Source: Clostridiales bacterium DTU070
GTDB taxonomy: Bacteria; Bacillota; Clostridia; DSM-8532
Length of the DNA: 35,985 nt
Reading direction: 5' to 3'
NCBI GenBank assembly: GCA_001513105.1
Contig: LFSH01000103.1
Coordinates: 24,405-60,389 of the forward strand
Numbering within the stretch: position 1 is the stretch's first letter; each line of letters starts with the position of its first letter. A program made the position numbers and the translations under genes. Below, in pieces: positions 362-11,293 of the stretch. The notes below the pieces were generated by a model that saw only the letters and a list, made by a program, of their open reading frames with translations, had not been told where the DNA came from and did not search any database.

Positions 362-1552
362 ATGCTTGCAGAAAAAATAGCTGAGCATAATGAATGCAAT
401 CTTCAGTTTTATACTCTGGGAAGGTTTGAAATTTATCTGAAAAACAGGGGTTATTACAACTTGACAGGGAGATCCACCAAGCTGTGGTATCTTTTTAAGT
501 ATCTGCTTCTGAATAAGAGAAAAGGGATTCCTCCCGAAACTATTCTTGAAACCCTGTATCCCTATGAAGAATATGAAAACCCGAAAAACACGCTGCAGAA
601 TATTGTATATCGACTCAGGAAGGTTTTAAACCAGGAAGAGTTTTTTAGGGATTTCGGCTGCAATATTGTATATAACAACGGATGCTATTCGTTGTCTTTT
701 AATGATGATGTTTTCCTTGATACTGACTATTTTGAGGAATATATACATAAAGCCGAATCACTTAAGAATATAAACCCCGACGAAGCAACAGAATGCTATG
801 AAAATGCATTAAAGCTGTACTGCGGCGATTATTTTCCCGAACTCATCTACGAGGACTGGGTTATCCCGAAAAGGAACTATTATCGCAGGCTGTATATCCA
901 GGCAGTAATGGAACTGGTAAAACTGTACCGTAAGAATATGGATTATGACAATATTATAAGGATCTGTGAACAGGCAATACAAATTGAACCATATGAAGAA
1001 GAATTACATATCTGCTTCATGGAAAACCTGATAGATAAGGGCAGAATTACAGAGGCACAGAATCACTATGAGTCATATACTTCAATGCTTTACAAGCAGT
1101 TCGGCATAAAACCCACGGCAGAGCTTCAGCAGGTTTATAAAATGCTTAAGAGCAGCGGAGCTGAACTGAATGACGTTGATGCTGAAGAGACATACTATGC
1201 TGACGAGGATTCTGCCGGTGCTTTTTATTGCGACAGGAATACATTCAACTCTATATACGTACTGGAAAAACGCAGAAGTGAAAGAACCGGGCATATAGTA
1301 TTTGTGGTTTCGCTGACAGTGAATGAGAATCACTGTATATTCGGCGAGTTCAGAAAAAGCCTGGTTAAATCGCTGCGCAGAGGAGATGTTGTCACAACAT
1401 GGTCAGGTAATGTTATTCTTGTTTTGCTGCCAAGGATGGAGTATAAGCAGATTATAGCAATAATGGACAGGATTATCAGGCAGTTTGGCAATGAGAGCAA
1501 TAACTATGATATAAAGGTGAAAATCCTTACAAACCTTCCGGCAGACATTTAA
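362..1552 (+). CDS. SARP/BTAD-type transcriptional activator with a degenerate GGDEF-like C-terminus
   Basis: The 396-aa protein starts with an OmpR-type winged-helix DNA-binding region (about residues 14-105, containing RSTKLWYLFKYLLLNKRKG and NTLQNIVYRLRKVLN). It continues with an all-helical bacterial transcriptional activator domain of TPR type (about 115-260, GDYFPELIYEDWVIPKR, IEPYEEELH). This order defines SARP-family activators, which bind short direct repeats spaced by one helical turn next to the -10 element. The last about 115 residues look like a diguanylate-cyclase fold without its active site: RGDVVTTWSGNVILVLLP occupies the place where GGDEF proteins read R.GGDEF.vllP. That assignment is by eye. 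Start chosen for the GGAGGGGGG site. Likely target: the fibre locus downstream, where 11-bp-phased repeats precede two units. Regulator family is secure; ligand and target are inference. Confidence 0.85.
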   Translation: MLAEKIAEHNECNLQFYTLGRFEIYLKNRGYYNLTGRSTKLWYLFKYLLLNKRKGIPPETILETLYPYEEYENPKNTLQNIVYRLRKVLNQEEFFRDFGCNIVYNNGCYSLSFNDDVFLDTDYFEEYIHKAESLKNINPDEATECYENALKLYCGDYFPELIYEDWVIPKRNYYRRLYIQAVMELVKLYRKNMDYDNIIRICEQAIQIEPYEEELHICFMENLIDKGRITEAQNHYESYTSMLYKQFGIKPTAELQQVYKMLKSSGAELNDVDAEETYYADEDSAGAFYCDRNTFNSIYVLEKRRSERTGHIVFVVSLTVNENHCIFGEFRKSLVKSLRRGDVVTTWSGNVILVLLPRMEYKQIIAIMDRIIRQFGNESNNYDIKVKILTNLPADI

Positions 1553-1670: not shown

Positions 1671-3209
1671 ATGGGTGATGAATTGAGCGAGTTAACGGGT
1701 AAATTCAAAGAAGTTCTGGCGTCAGTACTGCCAATTACATTCATTGTACTGGTACTTCATTTTACTATCAGTCCGCTGGAACCGAGCATGCTGTATGCTT
1801 TTCTCATCGGTTCTGCTTTGGTGATTATTGGTCTTACGATATTTCTGTTCGGAATAAGTCAGGGTATTGAACCAATAGGTCATGATGTCGGAAACGCAAT
1901 AACCCATATTAATATCTATTCGGTTGTAATTACAATTATACTGATACTTGGGTTTTTTATTTCATACGCCGAACCTGATCTGCACATACTTGCGAAGCAA
2001 GTGGCCAGCGTGACATCAGGCCAGTTTGATAATATCCTGATGGTAGTTGTTGTTTCGATCGGAATTGGTGTGATGATGACTCTTGGGATGCTTAGAATCC
2101 TAAAAAACATCCCGCTGAAATATGTGTTTACCGCTGCATATGGACTGATTCTAATACTGTCATTTTTCTCGTCGTCTGATTTTCTGGCTATAGCTTTTGA
2201 TGCTTCCGGGGCTACGACAGGAGCAATCACCGTACCTTTTATGCTTTCACTTGCAGCAGGGTTTTCGGCAATAAAAAAGGACAGTAAACTGAGTGAAGCA
2301 GACAGCTTCGGATTAGTCGGAATCTCTTCAACGGGTGCCATTCTCGGTGTTCTGATAACAAGCCTTTTTATCGGCAACGGTAAACTTAACGGTACCTTGC
2401 CCGAGGCAGAAACAACGGATGCAACATTATGGGAAATTTACAGCACAAAACTGGTAACCATCGCCTGGGAGGCGTTTTTAACACTGCTGCCCATTATAAT
2501 CACATACATACTCTTCGAGATATTTTTCTTCAAACACAAAAAGAGCAAGGTTATAGATGTCGTTCGTGGTATTGTTCTGACTTTCACCGGACTTGTGGTT
2601 TTCCTGCTGGGTGTAAACGGAGGTTTCATGGAAGTTGGAGCCCAGCTTGGAATACAGCTTGCATCACTGGACTCCAAGCTCCCGGTTCTCCTTGTTGCTT
2701 TGCTGCTCGGGCTTACCACAGTGCTTTCCGAGCCGGCTGTACATGTATTGACCCATCAGGTTGATGAAGTAACGGGTGGATCGGTCAGGCGCATACTGGT
2801 TCTTATTTTCCTGTCCATAGCAGTTGGCATGTCCATCTTTATGTCTGCACTGCGAATCCTGGTGCCGGAGATCCAGCTTTGGATGTACCTGCTTCCCGGG
2901 TTTGGTCTCGCTGTGATACTGTCTTTCCTTGTACCCGACTTGTTTGTGGGGATGGCCTTTGATGCAGGAGGAGTTGCATCCGGACCTATGACGGCAACCT
3001 TCTCTCTTGCTTTTGTTCAGGGTATTGCTGCCCGGATCCCTACAGCCGATGTGGTGGCAGATGGTTTTGGTATGATAGCAATAGTTGCAATGATGCCCAT
3101 TATAGCAATAGAACTGCTTGGTGCCATCTACCAGGCAAAATCGCGCAGGGCACCGAAAGCAGCGGTTACAAAAAAGCGATCAATTGGAGGTAATCATAAT
3201 GAACAGTGA
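1671..3209 (+). CDS. Tandem DUF1538 integral membrane protein, putative transporter
   Basis: A 512-aa, very hydrophobic protein made of two homologous halves. Matching signatures are AEPDLHILAKQVASVTSGQ (about residue 100) against SEPAVHVLTHQVDEVTGGS (about 350), and AIAFDASGATTGAITVPF against GMAFDAGGVASGPMTATF. Each half has several predicted membrane helices and polar re-entrant-like glycine-rich motifs, the layout of an inverted- or tandem-repeat transporter. This matches the DUF1538 family, whose substrate is not known to me. The stop overlaps the start of the next gene by 11 bases, so translation is probably coupled to the PII-like protein. The start is uncertain: ATG 1671 has little Shine-Dalgarno upstream, whereas TTG 1683 has GGTGAT just before it. 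Family call firm, transport role inferred. Confidence 0.85.
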   Translation: MGDELSELTGKFKEVLASVLPITFIVLVLHFTISPLEPSMLYAFLIGSALVIIGLTIFLFGISQGIEPIGHDVGNAITHINIYSVVITIILILGFFISYAEPDLHILAKQVASVTSGQFDNILMVVVVSIGIGVMMTLGMLRILKNIPLKYVFTAAYGLILILSFFSSSDFLAIAFDASGATTGAITVPFMLSLAAGFSAIKKDSKLSEADSFGLVGISSTGAILGVLITSLFIGNGKLNGTLPEAETTDATLWEIYSTKLVTIAWEAFLTLLPIIITYILFEIFFFKHKKSKVIDVVRGIVLTFTGLVVFLLGVNGGFMEVGAQLGIQLASLDSKLPVLLVALLLGLTTVLSEPAVHVLTHQVDEVTGGSVRRILVLIFLSIAVGMSIFMSALRILVPEIQLWMYLLPGFGLAVILSFLVPDLFVGMAFDAGGVASGPMTATFSLAFVQGIAARIPTADVVADGFGMIAIVAMMPIIAIELLGAIYQAKSRRAPKAAVTKKRSIGGNHNEQ

Positions 3210-3870
3210 ATATCAGTACATGATTATGACATTCATTCTGAGTGAACACCAATGTCACAGATTTGGTCGCATGGCAAAGGAGAAAGACATTCGCGGCGGG
3301 GTTGTAGTGCTTGGTAAAGGCACGGTAAACAGTGCTACGCTGAATTTACTGGGAATAAAGAGTCAGAAAAAGGAAATCGTGAATATAATGGTTGAAAGGG
3401 AAAAGGCCAACGAGTTACTGGATTATTTTGCAAAAGAACTCCAGCTGAACGAACCCGGTCACGGGATTGCCTTTACAACTTCTGCAATAATCGCCGACCA
3501 GATAATAAAAAACGGGGAGAGTGCATGTAATACAGCACATATTATGGAGGGAGATGTTATGTATAAAAAGCTGACGGTTATTGTGAATCGCGGGATGGCT
3601 GATACAGTTATGGATATTGCCCGTAAATCCGGTGTTACGGGCGGAACGGTTATGCATGGCCGGGGAACAGGCTCGGAATTTACCGAAAAACTGTTTGGTA
3701 TAGAGATCGTACCTGAAAAGGAACTGGTTGTAATATTAATGCCGGCTGAGCTTGTCAGCAGGGTAGTAGATGATTTGTACAGGGAACTTGAGCTGGATAC
3801 CCCGGGAAACGGGATTTTGTTCGTGGAACCTGTTGTTGAAGTAAGAGGCCTTGCAAAGAACAATCCTTAA
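3199..3870 (+). CDS. Tandem PII-like (nitrogen regulatory PII superfamily) protein
   Basis: The 223-aa protein contains two copies of a PII/CutA-like ferredoxin-fold unit, about residues 5-105 and 115-215. Each copy has a glycine-rich ligand-loop motif (GGVVVLGKGTVNS; GGTVMHGRGTGSE) and ends in a beta hairpin with GHGIAF or GNGILF. Classical PII proteins are single about 112-aa domains forming trimers, so a tandem fusion implies a different oligomer. The start at ATG 3199 is set by TTGGAGGTAATCATA before it and overlaps the DUF1538 gene. PII-like proteins encoded beside transporters commonly gate them in response to small ligands, so I infer it regulates the DUF1538 transporter. The usual uridylylated T-loop tyrosine is not evident. 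Confidence 0.85.
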   Translation: MNSEYQYMIMTFILSEHQCHRFGRMAKEKDIRGGVVVLGKGTVNSATLNLLGIKSQKKEIVNIMVEREKANELLDYFAKELQLNEPGHGIAFTTSAIIADQIIKNGESACNTAHIMEGDVMYKKLTVIVNRGMADTVMDIARKSGVTGGTVMHGRGTGSEFTEKLFGIEIVPEKELVVILMPAELVSRVVDDLYRELELDTPGNGILFVEPVVEVRGLAKNNP

Positions 3871-4337: not shown

Positions 4338-5564
4338 ATGAAAAAAAGATTAATTCTGATTTTTTTGGTACTTGCAATGTCCGTGTCACTTGTTGTTGGT
4401 ACAACGATAGCGTTTTTTACGGCAGAAGCGGAAATAGACGATGTTACGTTTACCAACGGTAATGTAAAGGTAAAACCAGGAACAACAACAGTGTTTAAAG
4501 GTAAACCGCTAAACAATGTCAATCCGGGAGATTGTTACATATTGACATACAGATTTGAAAACTCCGGTTCAAAAAGGATTGAACTGAGAGTTACCGCAAA
4601 TCCGGGCGACGGAACAGACCCTGATGCTGACGTAAAGTGGACAGGTGTAAACCTGGAGCTTTACAGCCATGAGAGAGAAGATCTGACCTGGAATGATTTC
4701 TTTGGCCTTGAAAATGTTTATGTCATTCCTCATCCATCAAGCAATGACTGGGTATTATACCAGGAAAATAGAGATGCTCCGGTACAGGCCTATTACCTTG
4801 GTGGTCCGGTGATGCCGGGGGATGTTGTTGAACTTAATCTCCTGGTGTATTTTGACTTGCTGCTGACCGGCAATGCGTACCAGGATGCAGTTTTCCACCT
4901 TGGAGGAAAAGTTGAAGCCGTACAGGCTACAAACGGTGCTCCGGATGAAGCATGGAAAGATGCATGGAAAGCTGTCAAAAGTGGTGGTTATGAATTTACA
5001 TATCAGTACTGGTATGAAAAATGGCATGATTACGATCCGAAAAACATACCCTGTTATCATGCAGATTTGAATAACCCGGAACCGTCACCAACGCCGGATC
5101 CGACACCTACACCCGAGCCAACACCGACACCTGATCCGACGCCTACACCCGAGCCAACACCGACACCTGATCCGACGCCTACACCCGAGCCAACACCAAC
5201 GCCTGATCCTACACCCACTCCAGATCCGAACAAGCTGGGTGGGAAAGTGGACGATTTTGATTATTGGTTCTCCGTTTCGCACAAAAACGGAAGAACATGC
5301 TATGACTGGATAACCAGGTTAACTGTAAACATTGACAAAGCTGTTGATAATAATAAGAATTTCAGCGGTTTCAAGGATGTAAAAGTCAAAATACATTATA
5401 TCTACGGCCGTAGACTCGAATCAGAGGAAATTACGGTTAAGGATGTAGAGTTCAAAAAGAACGGGAAAGGCAGTTTTGAACTGGAGCTTGATGGATTTTA
5501 CTTCATATACAAAGTGGATATAGAGATAGACGGAAAGCTGAAGGAAAAATATGTAGTTTTCTGA
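4338..5564 (+). CDS. TasA/CalY (camelysin)-like exported protein with Pro-Thr linker and extra C-terminal domain
   Basis: This 408-aa protein begins with a SipW-type signal sequence: [14 protein letters not shown], then [14 protein letters not shown], with cleavage likely after TTIA. A TasA-like beta-sandwich domain follows (about 30-225), ending in [10 protein letters not shown] and [10 protein letters not shown], a signature shared with the other paralogues here. Residues about 248-295 form a linker of [12 protein letters not shown] repeats, and a separate domain of about 110 residues rich in aromatic and charged residues closes the protein. That last domain I do not recognise; it could bind wall polymer or polysaccharide. 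No LPXTG motif is present. The start at ATG 4338 follows GAGGGGTG; an upstream in-frame ATG at 4287 would put a hydrophilic stretch before the signal and is less likely. Expressed from the repeat-containing promoter. Confidence 0.8.
5097..5222 (+). repeat. 36-bp coding tandem repeat (Pro-Thr-Asp/Glu linker)
   Basis: Three nearly identical 36-base units begin at 5097, 5133 and 5169, and a half unit follows at 5205. Each encodes [12 protein letters not shown]. Units differ by one to three silent changes, so copy number probably varies between strains. The linker separates the fibre-type domain from the terminal domain. Confidence 0.9.
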
Positions 5565-5590
5565 GGACTGCAGCCGTGAGCCGGTCCCGG

Positions 5591-5646
5591 TTGTGACCGA
5601 AATGTGAGTGAAATGAGAGTGAGATAAGACTGGTTTTTTGTATAAC
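5591..5646 (+). promoter_or_regulatory. Four phased direct repeats plus -10: activator site of the second fibre unit
   Basis: Decamers TTGTGACCGA (5591), ATGTGAGTGA (5602), ATGAGAGTGA (5613) and ATAAGACTGG (5624) start exactly 11 bases apart. Seven bases after the last copy comes TATAAC (5641-5646), a good -10. The second decamer is identical to the copies at 4217 and 4233, and both arrays end in a GACTG variant next to the -10. No -35 hexamer is present, which fits activator-dependent transcription by a SARP-type protein. Gene 5682 begins about 36 bases after the -10. Confidence 0.7.
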
Positions 5647-5681
5647 TTAGCATTGAGGAAAATATTGGGGGACAAATACAA

Positions 5682-5957
5682 ATGGATAAGTACTGCAACA
5701 GCAGGAGAAAACTTAATAACGCAGGAACCGAAATAAAAAACTCTTCTTTTCTGTTGAAAATCAGATACAACCAGAACAATACGATACAGGGTTCCATCCA
5801 GTGGCTTGAAAAAAAGAAAACAATATGTTTCAGAAGCATGATGGAACTAATGAAGCTGCTGATAGAGGCAAACGGAAATGATGAGTATCGTACCTGGGAC
5901 GGGGAAGAGGGCGCAATATCCGAAGTTCAGATACTAAGACACATATCGAATTTATAG
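5682..5957 (+). CDS. Small conserved hypothetical cytoplasmic protein
   Basis: The 91-aa protein has no signal sequence or membrane segment. Its core reads SFLLKIRYNQNNTIQGSIQW, then a charged turn and ICFRSMMELMKLLIEA. I recall this QN-T-QG-I-W / FRS-ELM-L pattern from short uncharacterised proteins of Firmicutes, though I cannot search. Two or three short beta strands and one amphipathic helix are plausible. A GGGGGA ribosome site precedes the ATG. It is the first gene after the phased-repeat promoter, followed at once by the small exported protein and sipW, so a regulatory or chaperone role in the fibre system is possible but unproven. Confidence 0.7.
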   Translation: MDKYCNSRRKLNNAGTEIKNSSFLLKIRYNQNNTIQGSIQWLEKKKTICFRSMMELMKLLIEANGNDEYRTWDGEEGAISEVQILRHISNL

Positions 5958-5969
5958 GGGAGAATGGAA

Positions 5970-6302
5970 ATGTGCAGGCATGTTCGGAAAGATATGGAAG
6001 CCGGAAAGAAAAAAACTGCAAAAAACAAGTGTTATAAAATCCTTGCAGCAGTGATGGTTATGCTTACTTCTGCATGCTTCCTGGCTGCACATGAATCAGC
6101 GCTGCCCGGAACAAGGGCAATTTTCCGGGACAGCAAGGAAAGCCATGTAACCCTTACTGTTGCTGAGGATGTTTATTTCAGCACACAAGCATTAACGATA
6201 AACGGTATTTTGAATGATTTGGATACGACCGGTGAAGATCCGACCGTGGCAGAAGATGTTTATGATACAAACCGGTTCAGTAACAGGATAATCGGTGAGT
6301 AA
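5970..6302 (+). CDS. Small exported protein with minimal SipW-type leader
   Basis: The 110-aa product has a basic N-terminus, one hydrophobic segment (about residues 22-42, ILAAVMVMLTSACFLAA) and then ESALPGTRAIFRDSKESHV, which resembles the GTWA-AFND-K region that SipW recognises in TasA. The mature part would be only about 60 residues and contains VAEDVY twice (about 60 and 95). It is too short for the full TasA sandwich. Start: ATG 5970 sits 7 bases after AGGGGAG; ATG 5964 is in frame but too close to that site. It lies directly before sipW, the place occupied by tapA in Bacillus, so an accessory or assembly role is possible. Function unknown. Confidence 0.65.
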   Translation: MCRHVRKDMEAGKKKTAKNKCYKILAAVMVMLTSACFLAAHESALPGTRAIFRDSKESHVTLTVAEDVYFSTQALTINGILNDLDTTGEDPTVAEDVYDTNRFSNRIIGE

Positions 6303-6326
6303 TAAACAGGATGGGAGAGACAACGT

Positions 6327-6962
6327 ATGATGCAAAACGTTGAGCAGTTTAAAACAAAAAAATCAGCTTTCAGGACAGTTCTGGATGTTTTAAGCACACT
6401 GTTCCTGGTAGTTTTAGGGGTGTTTATTGTCTGCATGCTTGTTTTCATGTTCAAAGGCATGAAGGAAAACGATACACCTTCAATTTTCGGACATCAGATA
6501 TATATTGTACGCAGCAACAGTATGAGCCCTGCATTTGAAACAGGAAGCCTTCTGATTGTAAAGCAGGTTGACGCCCGGTCAGTACAGGTTAACGACGTAA
6601 TAACCTTCAGGGGTGAAAACGACTCGGTTGCTACAACACACAGGGTGGTGGAAATTGTTGACGAGGACGGGCTGCATTTTATCACCCGCGGTGACGCAAA
6701 CAACGTTAATGATCCGCTGCCTGTACCGGCTGATGAAGTAATCGGCAGGGTTGTATTCTCAATACCGTACATAGGCTATTTGCTCGGTTTTATCAGGACC
6801 AAGCAGGGATTGCTGATTTGCATTATAATACCGGCAATGATTATTATAGTTTCCCAGGTCCTTTCATTCGTAAGGGAATTAAAAAAGGAAAAAAAGAACG
6901 GCACAGAAAAGATTGGGACAGGTGTACAGGAACTGCTGAGCAATACGAGGCAGGAGGACTGA
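6327..6962 (+). CDS. sipW: ER-type signal peptidase I (SipW-like)
   Basis: The 211-aa membrane protease has a membrane helix near residues 18-44 and a second near 155-185. The catalytic serine lies in SNSMSPAF (Ser65), with the histidine in TTHRVVE (His105) and the conserved TRGDANN (Asp123). A His in place of the usual catalytic Lys marks the eukaryotic/archaeal-type signal peptidases such as SipW, which process TasA and camelysin precursors in Bacillus. Length agrees with SipW (about 190 aa). A GGGAGAG site precedes ATG 6327. It is embedded among TasA-like genes and its stop is 3 bases from the next start, so co-transcription and co-translation are likely. Its substrates should be the proteins at 4338, 5970, 6966, 7553 and 8858. 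Confidence 0.93.
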   Translation: MMQNVEQFKTKKSAFRTVLDVLSTLFLVVLGVFIVCMLVFMFKGMKENDTPSIFGHQIYIVRSNSMSPAFETGSLLIVKQVDARSVQVNDVITFRGENDSVATTHRVVEIVDEDGLHFITRGDANNVNDPLPVPADEVIGRVVFSIPYIGYLLGFIRTKQGLLICIIIPAMIIIVSQVLSFVRELKKEKKNGTEKIGTGVQELLSNTRQED

Positions 6963-6965
6963 CAG

Positions 6966-7484
6966 ATGAAAAAAGTGCTCTCGGTTACAATTTTGGTTAT
7001 TGCATGTATCCTGGTTGCCAGCGGATTAACCCTTGCCTATTTTTATGAAAGTAAAAATATACATCCCGTTCACTTTACAACAGGTTCGGTGAAAGTTGAG
7101 GTTGAACTGGAAAATGGCGACTGGGACGGCTGGAAACCCGGGAACGACAAGACAATAAAATGGTATTTCACCAACATGGGAACTATTGACGCCACACTGG
7201 CAGCAGAGATTAAAAAGGAATGGGACGTCAATACCGTAAACAGGAGTGTACAATATTCTGTTTATGAAAACCAGGACCAGGGCGAGCCCGAGGTAACATG
7301 GAAACTGATGGACGATAACTGGGAGCTTAATGATAACACCTACTGTTACAAAAATACAGTCAGGCCCAATGAAAGAGTACCCCTTGAGTTCAGTCTGTCC
7401 ATTGAAGACATACCCGAAGGGTATGCAGGGGCGGATTACAATATAACATTAACCATTACGGCAACACAGGTTTTTGACGAATAA
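6966..7484 (+). CDS. Short TasA/CalY-like exported protein
   Basis: This 172-aa protein has the signal MKKVLSVTILVIACILVASG followed by LTLAYFYESK; SipW cleavage is expected after TLA. The mature part is a single TasA-like domain: HFTTGSVKVEVE at its start, WKPGNDKTIKWYFTNMGTID in the middle and YAGADYNITLTITATQ at the end. These align by eye with the paralogues at 4338, 7553 and 8858. There is no anchor motif. AGGAGG lies 10 bases upstream and the gene follows sipW after 3 bases. The last 6 residues after the final strand are short, so this is the minimal version of the family. Likely a fibre subunit or minor pilin-like component, by family analogy. Confidence 0.85.
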   Translation: MKKVLSVTILVIACILVASGLTLAYFYESKNIHPVHFTTGSVKVEVELENGDWDGWKPGNDKTIKWYFTNMGTIDATLAAEIKKEWDVNTVNRSVQYSVYENQDQGEPEVTWKLMDDNWELNDNTYCYKNTVRPNERVPLEFSLSIEDIPEGYAGADYNITLTITATQVFDE

Positions 7485-7552
7485 ACTGCACAGGTAGACA
7501 AAGATTCGTTCATATTTTTTATGCACCCAAGTTGGCGAGGGGAGGTGAGAAA

Positions 7553-8680
7553 GTGAGAAAGAAACTGCTTATGAGTGCATTCTTCCTGGTCATTACTATT
7601 GCAATGGCTGCTGCAGCAACAATGGCATGGTTCACTGATAATGGCACCGCTGAAGATGCACAGTTTACTGCCGGAACAGTATCGATAGAAGCAGGAAGGA
7701 AAGTAATTTGTGACGGTACGGACAATAATGGTGAATACGCTGTTCGCAGGGAAGTCCTTCCGTTCCGGGTTGTGGAAGCAAAACAGGGTTATGCCGGTAT
7801 CAACAATGATTTGCCTGTCAAAGAGACAAGATCCAATGAAGAAGCTGTCCTGACCCTTGGTACCGAGCAAGACGAATCAAATTTCTACAGCCTTGGCTTC
7901 GGTGGTGAAATGATCCTGGAATTTGATGCTGCGTTGTTCGACCCAGAAATAGTAATTGTTGTAGAGGACACCTGGGGTGGAAATTATCCGGATGAAACGG
8001 CTGAAGTATCTGTAAGCATGGACGGACAAACCTGGATTGTCATTGGTGAGGCTAACAACGAAAACCTGGACAAAAACCAGACACTCAGCCAGTTTAAATT
8101 TTCTGAAATTGACGTGGATATAAACTACATTAAATATATAAAAATAAAGGATACGACAGATGTTAAGCCATTTCGGGACAGGAACTACTCCTCTTCCGAC
8201 AACTCGGTGGACGGGTTTGACCTGAATACCGTGAAGCTTACAGGTTATATCGCCGACGAAGATAACTGGAACCCGGGTGATACCAATTATACAAGGTATA
8301 CTGTTAAGAACACCGGAACAAAGGCCATTAACCTGAGAGCCAAGTTAACAGGCGGCTGGTATGAGTATAAGAAGGATAAATACGGCGGTAAATGGGAACC
8401 TGTTGATTTACCGGCTGATAACGTTGTCATTTCTCCCGTAAGTGACGGTTGGGAAGAGCACGATGGTTATTTCTACTACAAGCCCGATATACCCGGAACA
8501 TACACCGAACCGGACGAGAAGGAAAGAACTGTGGAACTTAGGGTATCCGTGCATCTGATCGGAGAACAGACCGACGACAGGTATCAGGGCAAACGCTATA
8601 TTCTGAAAGCAGAGTTTGAAGCAGTCCAGGCGTCCAATAACGCCGCAAAGGATGTTTGGAATGTATCCATTTACGACTGA
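7553..8680 (+). CDS. TasA/CalY-like exported protein carrying an inserted beta-sandwich domain
   Basis: The 375-aa protein has a SipW-type signal (MRKKLLMSAFFLVIT, AAATMAWFTDNGTAEDAQFT). The TasA-like fold begins with FTAGTVSIEAG, is interrupted by about 180 residues, then resumes at DEDNWNPGDTNYTRYTVKNT and ends with YQGKRYILKAEFEAVQAS. The insert contains GFGGEMILEFD, DTWGGNYPDETAEVSVSMDG, INYIKYIKIKDTTD and DGFDLNTVKL. This pattern I associate with discoidin/F5-8C-like surface modules that often bind glycans. The start GTG 7553 is placed by GGGGAGGTGAG just upstream; TTG 7532 would overlap that site. It likely adds a binding function to the fibre, which is inference from the domain. Confidence 0.83.
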   Translation: MRKKLLMSAFFLVITIAMAAAATMAWFTDNGTAEDAQFTAGTVSIEAGRKVICDGTDNNGEYAVRREVLPFRVVEAKQGYAGINNDLPVKETRSNEEAVLTLGTEQDESNFYSLGFGGEMILEFDAALFDPEIVIVVEDTWGGNYPDETAEVSVSMDGQTWIVIGEANNENLDKNQTLSQFKFSEIDVDINYIKYIKIKDTTDVKPFRDRNYSSSDNSVDGFDLNTVKLTGYIADEDNWNPGDTNYTRYTVKNTGTKAINLRAKLTGGWYEYKKDKYGGKWEPVDLPADNVVISPVSDGWEEHDGYFYYKPDIPGTYTEPDEKERTVELRVSVHLIGEQTDDRYQGKRYILKAEFEAVQASNNAAKDVWNVSIYD

Positions 8681-8709
8681 AACAATAAAAATAATCAAAT
8701 AAACAAAAA

Positions 8710-8802
8710 ATATTATTGAAAAAGGCAAACCTGTCGTCGAAAGGCAGGGACGCAAAGCTACAGGGCCTTCCGAAAGATGGCAGCCTGGCCGCCGGATAAT
8801 AT
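8710..8802 (+). ncRNA. GEMM-I riboswitch (cyclic-di-GMP class I type)
   Basis: The core GGCAAACC (8724-8731), a stem capped by a CGAAAG tetraloop (P2, CCTG pairing CAGG), the invariant GGGACGCAAAGC and a P3 arm with CAGG/CCTG pairing match the GEMM-I aptamer consensus. Closing helix P1 can form from ATATTAT (8710-8716) and ATAATAT (8796-8802). GEMM-I RNAs sense c-di-GMP, and a subset senses cGAMP depending on one base, which I cannot align with certainty. No terminator lies between aptamer and the gene at 8858. A second copy of the 3' P1 strand (8810-8816) offers an alternative pairing. It likely controls the downstream TasA-like gene. Confidence 0.9.
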
Positions 8803-8857
8803 AAATAAGATAATATAAATAATAAGAAACACAGCAATTTTAAAGGAGAGTGTTACC

Positions 8858-9550
8858 ATGAAGAAGAAAATGTTATTGATGTTATTGGCGGTAGCAGTTT
8901 GCGTATCAATGATCGCTGCAGCTACATATGCATGGTTTACGGATGAAGCTGATGCAGCAGACGCTGTATTCACAGCAGGAACGGTTGACATTGAAATCGG
9001 TAAACCAAAGGCATTTGATAATCAGAAATGGAATAACGTAAACCCCGGCGACAGTTACGAAGTTGAATGGAACATTCATAACGCAGGTTCAAAAGCCATG
9101 GTATTCAAGACCGACATCAGGGCATCATGGACCATTCTTGAAGAAAGAAAAGGCTTATTCAGGAATGCCGACAACAATAATGAAACCCTGAAAAACGTAA
9201 AAATCGCAATCTGGGACGAGGTTGACGGTGAATATTATGAAGTTAATGATGAAGGTTATGTGAAAACAAGTGAATGGGTATTAAGATGGGAAGGCAGAAA
9301 TCCTTATGACAAAGATAATACCTTTAACCTGAACAATTTTGCACTGTACTATGTTGGAAATGCCATAGCTTCCAAGGAGAACAAAACATTAAGGTTAAAA
9401 GTTACCTTTGACGGACCCAATACCCATAACGGTTACCAGGGAGCAACCTTCAACCTTGGTGGAACAGCTACTGCCGTACAGGCTTCCAACGGTGCACCCG
9501 AGGCCGTATTTGGTGATGTTTACGAAGGCTTCACCTATGTAAAGCCCTGA
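8858..9550 (+). CDS. TasA/CalY-like exported protein, probable main fibre subunit under riboswitch control
   Basis: The 230-aa protein has a SipW-type signal (MKKKMLLMLLAVAVCVSMIA, then ATYAWFTDEADAADAVFTAG, cleaved probably after TYA). A single TasA-like sandwich follows: NNVNPGDSYEVEWNIHNAGS, FDGPNTHNGYQGATFNLGG and AVQASNGAP. It is close in length to Bacillus TasA (261 aa) and has no linker, insert or anchor, so it best fits the major polymerising subunit. A strong AAAGGAGAG site precedes ATG 8858. A GEMM-I riboswitch sits in its leader, so its expression likely follows the cellular cyclic dinucleotide level, separately from upstream genes. The role as major subunit is inferred. Confidence 0.85.
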   Translation: MKKKMLLMLLAVAVCVSMIAAATYAWFTDEADAADAVFTAGTVDIEIGKPKAFDNQKWNNVNPGDSYEVEWNIHNAGSKAMVFKTDIRASWTILEERKGLFRNADNNNETLKNVKIAIWDEVDGEYYEVNDEGYVKTSEWVLRWEGRNPYDKDNTFNLNNFALYYVGNAIASKENKTLRLKVTFDGPNTHNGYQGATFNLGGTATAVQASNGAPEAVFGDVYEGFTYVKP

Positions 9551-9606
9551 TTGAAATAAACCATTATTAATGCCTGCATAACACGTAAACGAGAGGATGT
9601 TAATGA

Positions 9607-10509
9607 TTGGATAAGTATAAGAGCAAATCTCCGTTATCCATATTAATAGCAGTGATGATCCTTTTAGGCTGTATGGCCATGGGTTCAACAAATGCTGATG
9701 CGCTGGAAGTAGCTGGAGAGAATACAGGGCTAAGGATTAAGGTATCCGACGTACTCGTTGAAACCGACAATCTCGGCCCCGGCGATACTAAATCCTCCAC
9801 GATGACCATTTTCATTGATCCTGAAAGCGAAACATCCTCTCTGCGTGTTTGGCTCAAGGCCGAGATATACAAAAACGTATTGGGCAAAGAAGTCAACGGG
9901 AAAAGGGGTAACCTTGACGACAGGCTGATTCTGACAATAACCCATGAGAACGGGAAAGAACTGCACAAAGGACCGATCAGTAAGCTCAACAAAAACGTAC
10001 TTGTTGGTGATATACAGAAAGGTACCCCCGTTAATTTGACATTCACTGTTCATCTTCCCGGTGAGGCTACCGGCAATGAATACCAGGGTGCGTCACTGAA
10101 GGTCAGGTGGATCCTAACCGCTCAGTATGAGAGGAAAGACAGCGAACCTGATCCTACAAGGCCTTTATCAAGGCCTACGGACAGCCCCAGAACAACCATC
10201 CAACCACAACCACCTTCTGCAGGTCCGACAGATCCTGCAGCCCCCCCAAAACAGGATTCTGATACACCTTCCGGAATACCTGAAATAATAGAAATAGAAG
10301 ATGAAGAGATTCCGGAGGGACCGCCTGGTGGACCTGAAACATTAGATAAACCCGGTGAGGGTGAAACAGAAATAATAATTATAAAAGAAGAAGAAATACC
10401 AAAAGGGCTTCCGAAAACAGGAGAAATGCCTCCGATAATATATTACGGTTTAGGGGCTGTTTCAATTTTTGCCGGTATAATGCTGAACCGAAGGAAGCAT
10501 AAACAGTGA
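9607..10509 (+). CDS. LPXTG-anchored TasA-like surface protein
   Basis: The 300-aa protein has a conventional signal peptide (residues 1-32, ending NADA) rather than the SipW type. A TasA-like sandwich follows (about 35-175: LGPGDTKSSTMTIFIDPESE, VWLKAEIYKN, TGNEYQGASLKVRWILTAQY). Then comes a Pro-rich spacer with two related acidic units (IEIEDEEIPEGPP and IIIIKEEEIPKGLP). A canonical wall-sorting signal ends it: LPKTG at 268-272, a hydrophobic helix and NRRKHKQ. It should be linked to peptidoglycan by the sortase encoded next and could anchor or cap the fibre. The start is TTG 9607, preceded by GAGAGGATG; no ATG or GTG keeps the whole signal peptide. Confidence 0.85.
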   Translation: MDKYKSKSPLSILIAVMILLGCMAMGSTNADALEVAGENTGLRIKVSDVLVETDNLGPGDTKSSTMTIFIDPESETSSLRVWLKAEIYKNVLGKEVNGKRGNLDDRLILTITHENGKELHKGPISKLNKNVLVGDIQKGTPVNLTFTVHLPGEATGNEYQGASLKVRWILTAQYERKDSEPDPTRPLSRPTDSPRTTIQPQPPSAGPTDPAAPPKQDSDTPSGIPEIIEIEDEEIPEGPPGGPETLDKPGEGETEIIIIKEEEIPKGLPKTGEMPPIIYYGLGAVSIFAGIMLNRRKHKQ

Positions 10510-10514
10510 TGTAA

Positions 10515-10540
10515 TAAGCCGGAGGATTACCTCCGGCTTA
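10515..10540 (+). terminator. Intercistronic hairpin between the LPKTG protein and sortase genes
   Basis: TAAGCCGGAGG pairs with CCTCCGGCTTA around the loop ATTA, an 11-bp perfect stem. No T run follows directly, but a small AAACAAT/ATTGTTT hairpin with TTTTTTC comes next (10543-10562). It may be a partial terminator or processing/stabilising site that lowers sortase expression relative to the surface protein. Confidence 0.5.
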
Positions 10541-10576
10541 ATAAACAATATCATTGTTTTTTCAAGGGAGATCCAA

Positions 10577-11293
10577 ATGAAACTCAAATCAGTTCTGCTG
10601 ATTGCCGCAGGTATTATAATTGCGGCATATCCTGTTGTAAAGGATATCTATACAGAGTATATGCAAAACAGGATTCTGAAAGAATGGGAAGAGGAGAGAA
10701 GGGTATTTGAAGAGAGAATGCATGATAATGATGATGCCTGTGAAGTATCTGGGGATGCCGTAAATGCATACCTTAACCTTGATGAATCCTTTTCGGGTTT
10801 AAATGAAGCTGAATATGAAAACACGGAAAACAATGAAAATGAAGCCGGCACAGGCAAATCAAACAGGTTCGTTACACTGGGCATTATTAAAATAGATAAA
10901 ATAAATGTCAATTTACCCGTTATGGATGGCGCCACGCCCGAAATACTGAAAATCGGCGCAGGAAAGCTTAAGGGTACAACGGATATCGGCAAAATAGGGA
11001 ATACTGCTATATCAGCGCATAGAAGCCATACTTACGGGCGTAATTTCAACAGGCTCGATGAGGTGGAGGAGGGGGACATAGTAGTTATTTCCACCCTTGA
11101 CGCCGATTATGCCTACGAAGTATTCAATATCCTGGTAGTGGAACCTGATGACGTATCAGTTCTGAAAAAAAGTGAAACTGAAAGCATCCTTACACTTATT
11201 ACATGCCATCCCTTGTATACGGCGACACATAGGTTGATTGTCCAGGCAAGGCTGATTGATACGGTATTTCACAGTTCAAACCCTGAGGGTTAA
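10577..11293 (+). CDS. Sortase (class D-like)
   Basis: The 238-aa enzyme has an N-terminal membrane helix (3-22), a charged stalk (30-95) and a sortase beta-barrel. Catalytic residues are visible: His148 in AISAHRSHTYG, Cys210 in TLITCHPL and Arg219 in ATHRLIVQ. The TLITC form and short N-terminal region fit class D (or E) sortases of Firmicutes rather than class A or a pilus class C enzyme, since no lid region is seen. It cleaves LPXTG between T and G and links the protein to the wall. The only LPXTG protein in view is the adjacent one. An AAGGGAG site precedes the ATG. Last gene of the fibre locus. Confidence 0.9.
   Translation: MKLKSVLLIAAGIIIAAYPVVKDIYTEYMQNRILKEWEEERRVFEERMHDNDDACEVSGDAVNAYLNLDESFSGLNEAEYENTENNENEAGTGKSNRFVTLGIIKIDKINVNLPVMDGATPEILKIGAGKLKGTTDIGKIGNTAISAHRSHTYGRNFNRLDEVEEGDIVVISTLDADYAYEVFNILVVEPDDVSVLKKSETESILTLITCHPLYTATHRLIVQARLIDTVFHSSNPEG

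Follow-up and report, generated by a model that had tools for sequence, protein, structure and literature searches.

How fibres of the TasA type start, end and are attached to the cell is a question in Bacillus, where the role of TapA is debated and where, to our knowledge, no covalent anchor for such fibres is known. The question is raised again by a locus at positions 4338-11293 of a 35,985-nucleotide (nt) stretch of DNA from Clostridiales bacterium DTU070 (contig LFSH01000103.1 of assembly GCA_001513105.1). This stretch is hereafter called the window; all coordinates are positions in it, and the genome holding it is 2.89 Mb. The locus encodes four TasA-like proteins with SipW-type leaders (Tas1 to Tas4, genes starting at 4338, 6966, 7553 and 8858), a SipW-type signal peptidase (6327), two small proteins (5682 and 5964), a protein with an LPKTG sorting signal and a leader not of the SipW type (9607), and a sortase (10577). 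It probably produces a fibre joined by donor strands, begun by a TapA-like donor, closed by an acceptor anchored in the wall and controlled by cyclic di-guanosine monophosphate (c-di-GMP). The sequence offers a candidate for each fibre end, which makes the question testable by single deletions.

The locus is real and conserved. All open reading frames listed in the initial annotation were found at their positions (Table 1), and at least seven other genomes have this order in full or in part, so that the arrangement is not due to chance. Within the same GTDB-type family (genomes G001, G002, G007 and G008) the order is kept whole or up to the contig ends: BTAD regulator, small protein, leader-only small protein, sipW, Tas2, Tas3, a subunit of the Tas4 or Tas1 type, LPXTG protein, sortase, GNAT and xerC. 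Tas3 is missing from the locus of G001. Several other families of Clostridia carry a related gene order, and clusters farther off were identified in Alkaliphilus pronyensis, in a Tissierellaceae genome, in G050, G067, G127, G183, G249 and G389, and in others. In G183, which belongs to another family, the small protein, the BTAD regulator and the position of a riboswitch are all repeated. A search for the gene order in other Clostridia had been proposed as a check in the initial annotation, and the genes were found to co-occur in order rather than scattered. Very probably, SipW-exported TasA-like subunits and a sorted wall protein of the TasA fold are thus encoded together.

The four subunits were recognised in the initial annotation, and this assignment holds. 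All of them display the leader pattern TxA-W/Y/F-F, and Tas1, Tas3 and Tas4 exceed the curated cut-off of PF12389 (22.5 bits), which is reached neither by Tas2 nor by the 9607 protein. Tas2 matches the BsaA family only, and weakly; it is kept in the relatives. Scores against the BsaA family (TIGR04090, cut-off 60 bits) are 24-29 bits, and those against the equivalog of B. subtilis TasA (NF046066, cut-off 450 bits) are 32 and 19.8 bits. Judged by these scores, the subunits are relatives and not orthologues of B. subtilis TasA. Single-sequence searches of Tas4 and of the LPKTG protein against the PDB sequences gave no TasA match. A profile of 17 sequences, built from the subunits of the window and of its relatives, was searched against all PDB sequences and matched TasA (8aur, E-value 4e-8; 5of1, E-value 5e-8). 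The AlphaFold (AF2) model of Tas4 has a mean predicted local distance difference test score (pLDDT) of 78, and its best Foldseek match in the PDB is the TasA fibre 8aur (E-value 7e-6).

The wall protein itself is built on the TasA fold according to its predicted structure, which is confident over residues 41-170. A shared domain had been claimed for this protein from the outset; it is weak in Pfam (E-value 0.055), and it is the predicted fold that matches TasA best. The fibre structure 8aur ranks first in both Foldseek and VIA (Z 9.5 over 139 residues) and is followed by two TasA crystal structures; further matches include CanA and an archaeal bundling pilus. A comparison of predicted structures with TasA had been suggested beforehand, and for the two proteins modelled, Tas4 and the LPKTG protein, the TasA fibre came out as the best Foldseek match. 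The C-terminus of the 9607 protein shows LPKTG followed by a hydrophobic stretch and basic residues, and its sorting signal scores above the cut-off of TIGR01167 (17.8 against 15.9 bits). In most loci the LPXTG gene directly follows the last subunit gene. The sortase, also recognised initially, carries the catalytic His, Cys and Arg motifs. Class C is its closest class by sequence, at a score below the cut-off of that class (NF033745, 146.5 against 160 bits) and without the DP[FWY] lid motif or a C-terminal membrane segment. No LPXTG or YPK pilin motif was found in Tas1 to Tas4. Together, these features suggest that the sortase probably joins the LPKTG protein to peptidoglycan rather than the subunits to each other. 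Since it is the only sortase in the genome and the 9607 protein the only clear LPXTG protein, covalent wall anchoring, as proposed earlier, is the natural reading.

The candidates for the fibre ends emerge from the N-termini. In B. subtilis, residues 28-38 of TasA form the donor strand after the SipW cut, with Phe29 and Phe39 being important; the N-terminus of TapA is regarded as the likely first donor, while TapA residues 44-57 are enough for biofilm formation (PMC9674648, PMC10151520). In 33 subunits from 15 sources, 15-16 residues separate an aromatic pair from a conserved Gly. Twelve of the 13 LPXTG proteins have an ordinary leader, and their mature form starts with [LIVFY]x[VIL]xGxxxG[LI], about 9-12 residues ahead of the same Gly and without the aromatic pair. 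The model of the LPKTG protein aligns to TasA from residue 43 on only. An acceptor-only anchor is therefore favoured on balance. The opposite case is found in the second small protein, whose start is possible at 5964 or 5970. It combines a SipW-type leader, a donor-like N-terminus and a gene directly before sipW, the position of tapA in Bacillus, which makes it a putative nucleator similar to TapA. Seven loci from four families (the window, L036, L037, L038, L041, L113 and L117) encode such a core-less protein, made of a SipW-type leader and donor-like strand, directly before sipW. From their sequences, the parts of the system would be of three kinds: donor-only, donor-plus-acceptor and acceptor-only.

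The following assembly is proposed. The signal peptidase would cut the leaders of Tas1 to Tas4 and expose a new N-terminus made of the aromatic pair, about ten residues and a Phe. It is an archaeal/ER-type signal peptidase I by TIGR02228, as first annotated, and resembles Bacillus SipW below the cut-off of that family (NF046067, 126.8 against 190 bits, E-value 7e-37). The exposed N-terminus would act as donor strand like TasA residues 28-38, and its insertion into the groove of the next subunit would drive assembly. The 5964 protein would provide the first donor, as the N-terminus of TapA may do, and the 9607 protein, with a groove and no donor segment, would take the last donor and close the fibre. 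Finally, the sortase would link the 9607 protein to peptidoglycan. The riboswitch located before Tas4 would tie production of the fibre to c-di-GMP, most likely by turning Tas4 on at the level of translation.

This riboswitch and the specialised termini were both absent from the initial annotation. The aptamer exceeds the gathering threshold of RF01051 (56 against 35 bits) and is predicted to bind c-di-GMP. With RF03167 it stays just below the threshold (57.5 against 59 bits), which the relatives at the same position exceed (63-68 bits). A variant ligand, as the RF03167 label (c-di-GMP-I-GGC) had suggested, is not claimed: where the RF03167 consensus has a G, an A is found in the window and in all other forward-read aptamers, and the RF01051 score exceeds its cut-off. 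No ligand for the GGC variant was found in the open-access literature. The same aptamer precedes the gene in the Tas4 position in G002, G007, G008 and G183, and other aptamers are located before genes for subunits in Alkaliphilus, Tissierellaceae and B1Sed10. Three class I aptamers are arranged in tandem at the operon head in G249, and class II aptamers are located before sipW in G379 and G159. The background amounts to 150 class I matches in 118 genomes, or about 0.5 per Mb. About 0.3 Mb of locus DNA contains 15 class I matches, a ratio inflated by kinship, by matches before neighbouring genes and by ascertainment. In a less biased set, 3 of 28 loci have a c-di-GMP riboswitch, against about 0.05 class I matches expected in 90 kb. 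The distance from the end of the aptamer to the start codon is 29-60 nt in the eight cases examined. Complementarity between the 3' strand of the aptamer and the ribosome site is seen in G183 (locus L113, CCGATT with AATCGG-AGG) and in Alkaliphilus (L077, CCAATT with AATTGG-AGG), suggesting that ligand binding frees translation. The genome encodes six GGDEF proteins. Control of Tas4 by c-di-GMP is regarded as highly likely.

Several results weigh against the proposed fibre or parts of it. The structural similarity between Tas4 and TasA is moderate (template modelling score (TM-score) 0.40; VIA Z 6.8, with TasA at rank 24), and VIA places integrin and other unrelated Ig-like folds slightly above TasA, with Z values of 7-8, a range which that tool calls common. 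The 5964 protein has no match to the TapA family TIGR04087 (cut-off 80 bits), with which Tas2 scores 13.3 bits. Among the LPXTG proteins, that of L041 lacks the N-terminal signature and that of L081 has no clear LPXTG motif. Moreover, these proteins retain a short N-terminal strand, so that some donor function is possible. In C. perfringens, where BsaA forms a SipW-dependent polymer, the nearby sortase is dispensable for the polymers (PMC7395162). The riboswitch in the window shows no visible terminator, no stem masking the ribosome site and no pairing of the kind described above; the direction of the switch is thus proposed there by analogy only. Finally, G001, which belongs to the same genus, has the locus and no riboswitch at the gathering threshold.

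The C. perfringens data also speak for an ordinary TasA/BsaA-like matrix fibre which is secreted and shed, the LPKTG protein and the sortase being a neighbouring wall pair that never touches it. BsaA polymers occur mostly outside the cells, need no helpers to form in E. coli and are not affected by deletion of srtB (PMC7395162), and the LPKTG protein has no SipW leader. This account is nevertheless unlikely, as the wall protein is itself predicted to adopt the TasA fold, has its gene immediately downstream of the final subunit gene in most loci, is found together with SipW and TasA genes in different families, and forms with the sortase the only such pair of the genome. Involvement of the sortase could be taken further, to a covalent pilus with the Tas proteins as pilins, given that the enzyme is closest to class C. 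Such a pilus was rejected as highly improbable, since LPXTG and YPK motifs are absent from all Tas subunits and the enzyme, below the class C cut-off, is devoid of the lid motif and the C-terminal membrane segment.

It is also very doubtful that the Tas proteins form no fibre at all and act as adhesins on the surface or as enzymes of the camelysin type. This reading draws on the name of PF12389, which comes from camelysin, described as a metallo-endopeptidase, and on the F5/8-type-C-like insert of Tas3 and the extra domain of Tas1. Against this, the pattern and length of the donor strand are conserved in the subunits, as expected of assembling subunits, and the predicted fold corresponds to that of TasA in the fibre. 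The donor-strand fibre with a wall-anchored end remains the preferred explanation. Its most far-reaching form is tentative, falling a little short of an even chance. It holds that the fibre is widespread in Clostridia, with a donor-only initiator, donor-plus-acceptor subunits and a sortase-bonded, acceptor-only terminator of the TasA fold, and that it is gated by c-di-GMP through repeatedly acquired riboswitches of two unrelated aptamer classes.

Compared to known TasA and BsaA systems, the novelty of the locus lies in its several diversified subunits, in a wall anchor of the TasA fold served by its own sortase, and in the c-di-GMP riboswitch. It shares with TapA-SipW-TasA of B. subtilis the SipW-processed leaders, the TasA fold, a donor segment with conserved aromatic residues and a core-less donor-like protein encoded directly before sipW, and differs in the three features just named and in the lack of a TapA-family match. 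The sipW-bsaA operon of C. perfringens likewise makes a clostridial SipW-dependent polymer, with secreted proteins encoded beside it and a sortase gene close by; there, however, the sortase is dispensable, BsaA has no LPXTG motif and control is exerted by BsaRS, temperature and pilA2, whereas TIGR04090 stays below cut-off here. In C. difficile, c-di-GMP riboswitches turn on the sortase-dependent surface proteins CD630_28310 and CD630_32460 (PMC6200980). The combination of such riboswitches with sortase substrates in a clostridial species is the same, but these are single surface proteins and not a TasA fibre locus. A dedicated sortase and a wall-anchored base protein are also found in Gram-positive sortase-assembled pili, unlike which the subunits here have no LPXTG or pilin motif. 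The proposed donor-strand joining and fold matches to FimA/FimG/FimI-type subunits recall chaperone-usher pili of type 1 and P; the locus encodes neither chaperone nor usher, and SipW export and sortase anchoring take their place. Searches of the open-access literature gave no description of fibres of the TasA type combined with sortase anchoring or with c-di-GMP riboswitches. The earlier proposal of a clostridial matrix fibre or pilus-like organelle not yet described stands in this respect; the SipW-dependent BsaA fibre is already known, and a covalent pilus is unsupported.

If the specialised ends are as proposed, the fibre would be a Gram-positive counterpart of a donor-strand pilus with a covalent base. 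Many Clostridia would hold a surface organelle now annotated as scattered hypothetical or SipW-dependent proteins. In anaerobic Firmicutes, c-di-GMP would be linked directly to matrix-fibre production via two unrelated classes of RNA switch at the same kind of locus.

Table 1. Features of the locus and of its upstream regulator gene (aa, amino acids; positions refer to the window).
Feature	Position	Strand	Match or remark
BTAD/SARP-type regulator, degenerate GGDEF-like C-terminus	362..1552	+	BTAD E-value 1.5e-18; GGDEF E-value 0.0018, below cut-off
Tas1: SipW-type leader, TasA-like domain, Pro-Thr linker, C-terminal extra domain, 408 aa	4338..5564	+	PF12389 27 bits
Small conserved protein, 91 aa	5682..5957	+	no Pfam/NCBIfam match
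Small protein, SipW-type leader (TRAIF) and one strand, no TasA core	5964..6302	+	directly before sipW
SipW-type signal peptidase	6327..6962	+	TIGR02228 122.7 bits, cut-off 51.85
Tas2: minimal BsaA/TasA-like subunit, 172 aa	6966..7484	+	TIGR04090 E-value 9e-7, below cut-off
Tas3: TasA-like subunit, insert of ~180 aa after first strand	7553..8680	+	PF12389 29 bits
c-di-GMP-I (GEMM) riboswitch aptamer, 60 nt before Tas4 start codon	8715..8797	+	RF03167 57.5 bits, E-value 3e-11; RF01051 56 bits
Tas4: TasA-like subunit closest to plain TasA, 230 aa	8858..9550	+	PF12389 54.5 bits
LPKTG protein: AxA-type leader, predicted TasA-fold domain without donor segment, acidic/Pro-rich stalk, sorting signal	9607..10509	+	
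Sortase, class C-like, without C-terminal membrane segment or DP[FWY] lid motif	10577..11293	+	PF04203 113 bits, E-value 8e-33

The Pro-Thr linker of Tas1 and the inserted domain of Tas3, both pointed out in the initial annotation, are real. The linker form of Tas1 also occurs in L037 and L039, and no confident family was obtained for its C-terminal domain. A family search with the Tas3 insert gave no confident family either, the F5/8-type-C match being below threshold; the insert is 37-47% identical in four other genomes. Both extra domains may bind ligands. The start codon is GTG in the Tas3 gene and TTG in the 9607 gene. In G001, a frameshift splits the Tas1-type gene before the Pro-Thr linker (L036, 7100-8229), which represents either an error or phase change.

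The first small protein (5682-5957) has a conserved core, FLLKIRYxQNxxIQGxIQW...FRSxxEL. Its identity is about 61% in G002 and G007 and 41-43% in the more distant relatives in L113 and L081. The BTAD regulator is a candidate regulator of the locus and might sense a nucleotide signal; homologs adjoin L036-L038, L040, L042, L113 and L117, and the GGDEF-like C-terminus reaches an E-value of 0.00013 in the homolog of G079. A match to PVT1_3 at 1308-1400 was below its cut-off and was discarded as chance. Between the BTAD gene and Tas1, a two-gene set (1671-3870) encodes a multi-helix membrane protein of 512 aa and a PII-like protein of 250 aa. G001 has this set too, and in G050 it is located close to the locus (L042, 5010-6053).

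Further c-di-GMP-I riboswitches precede genes for secreted transglutaminase-like proteins, at about 5303-6192 of L044 (G000:C28), at 14487-16012 of L041 and, in tandem, at 2164-3192 of L078; in L041 and L078 these genes adjoin the TasA locus. The third c-di-GMP-I riboswitch of the genome, whose target falls within masked sequence, is located downstream of an AgrB-like gene (L045, about 8669-8758; G000:C102).

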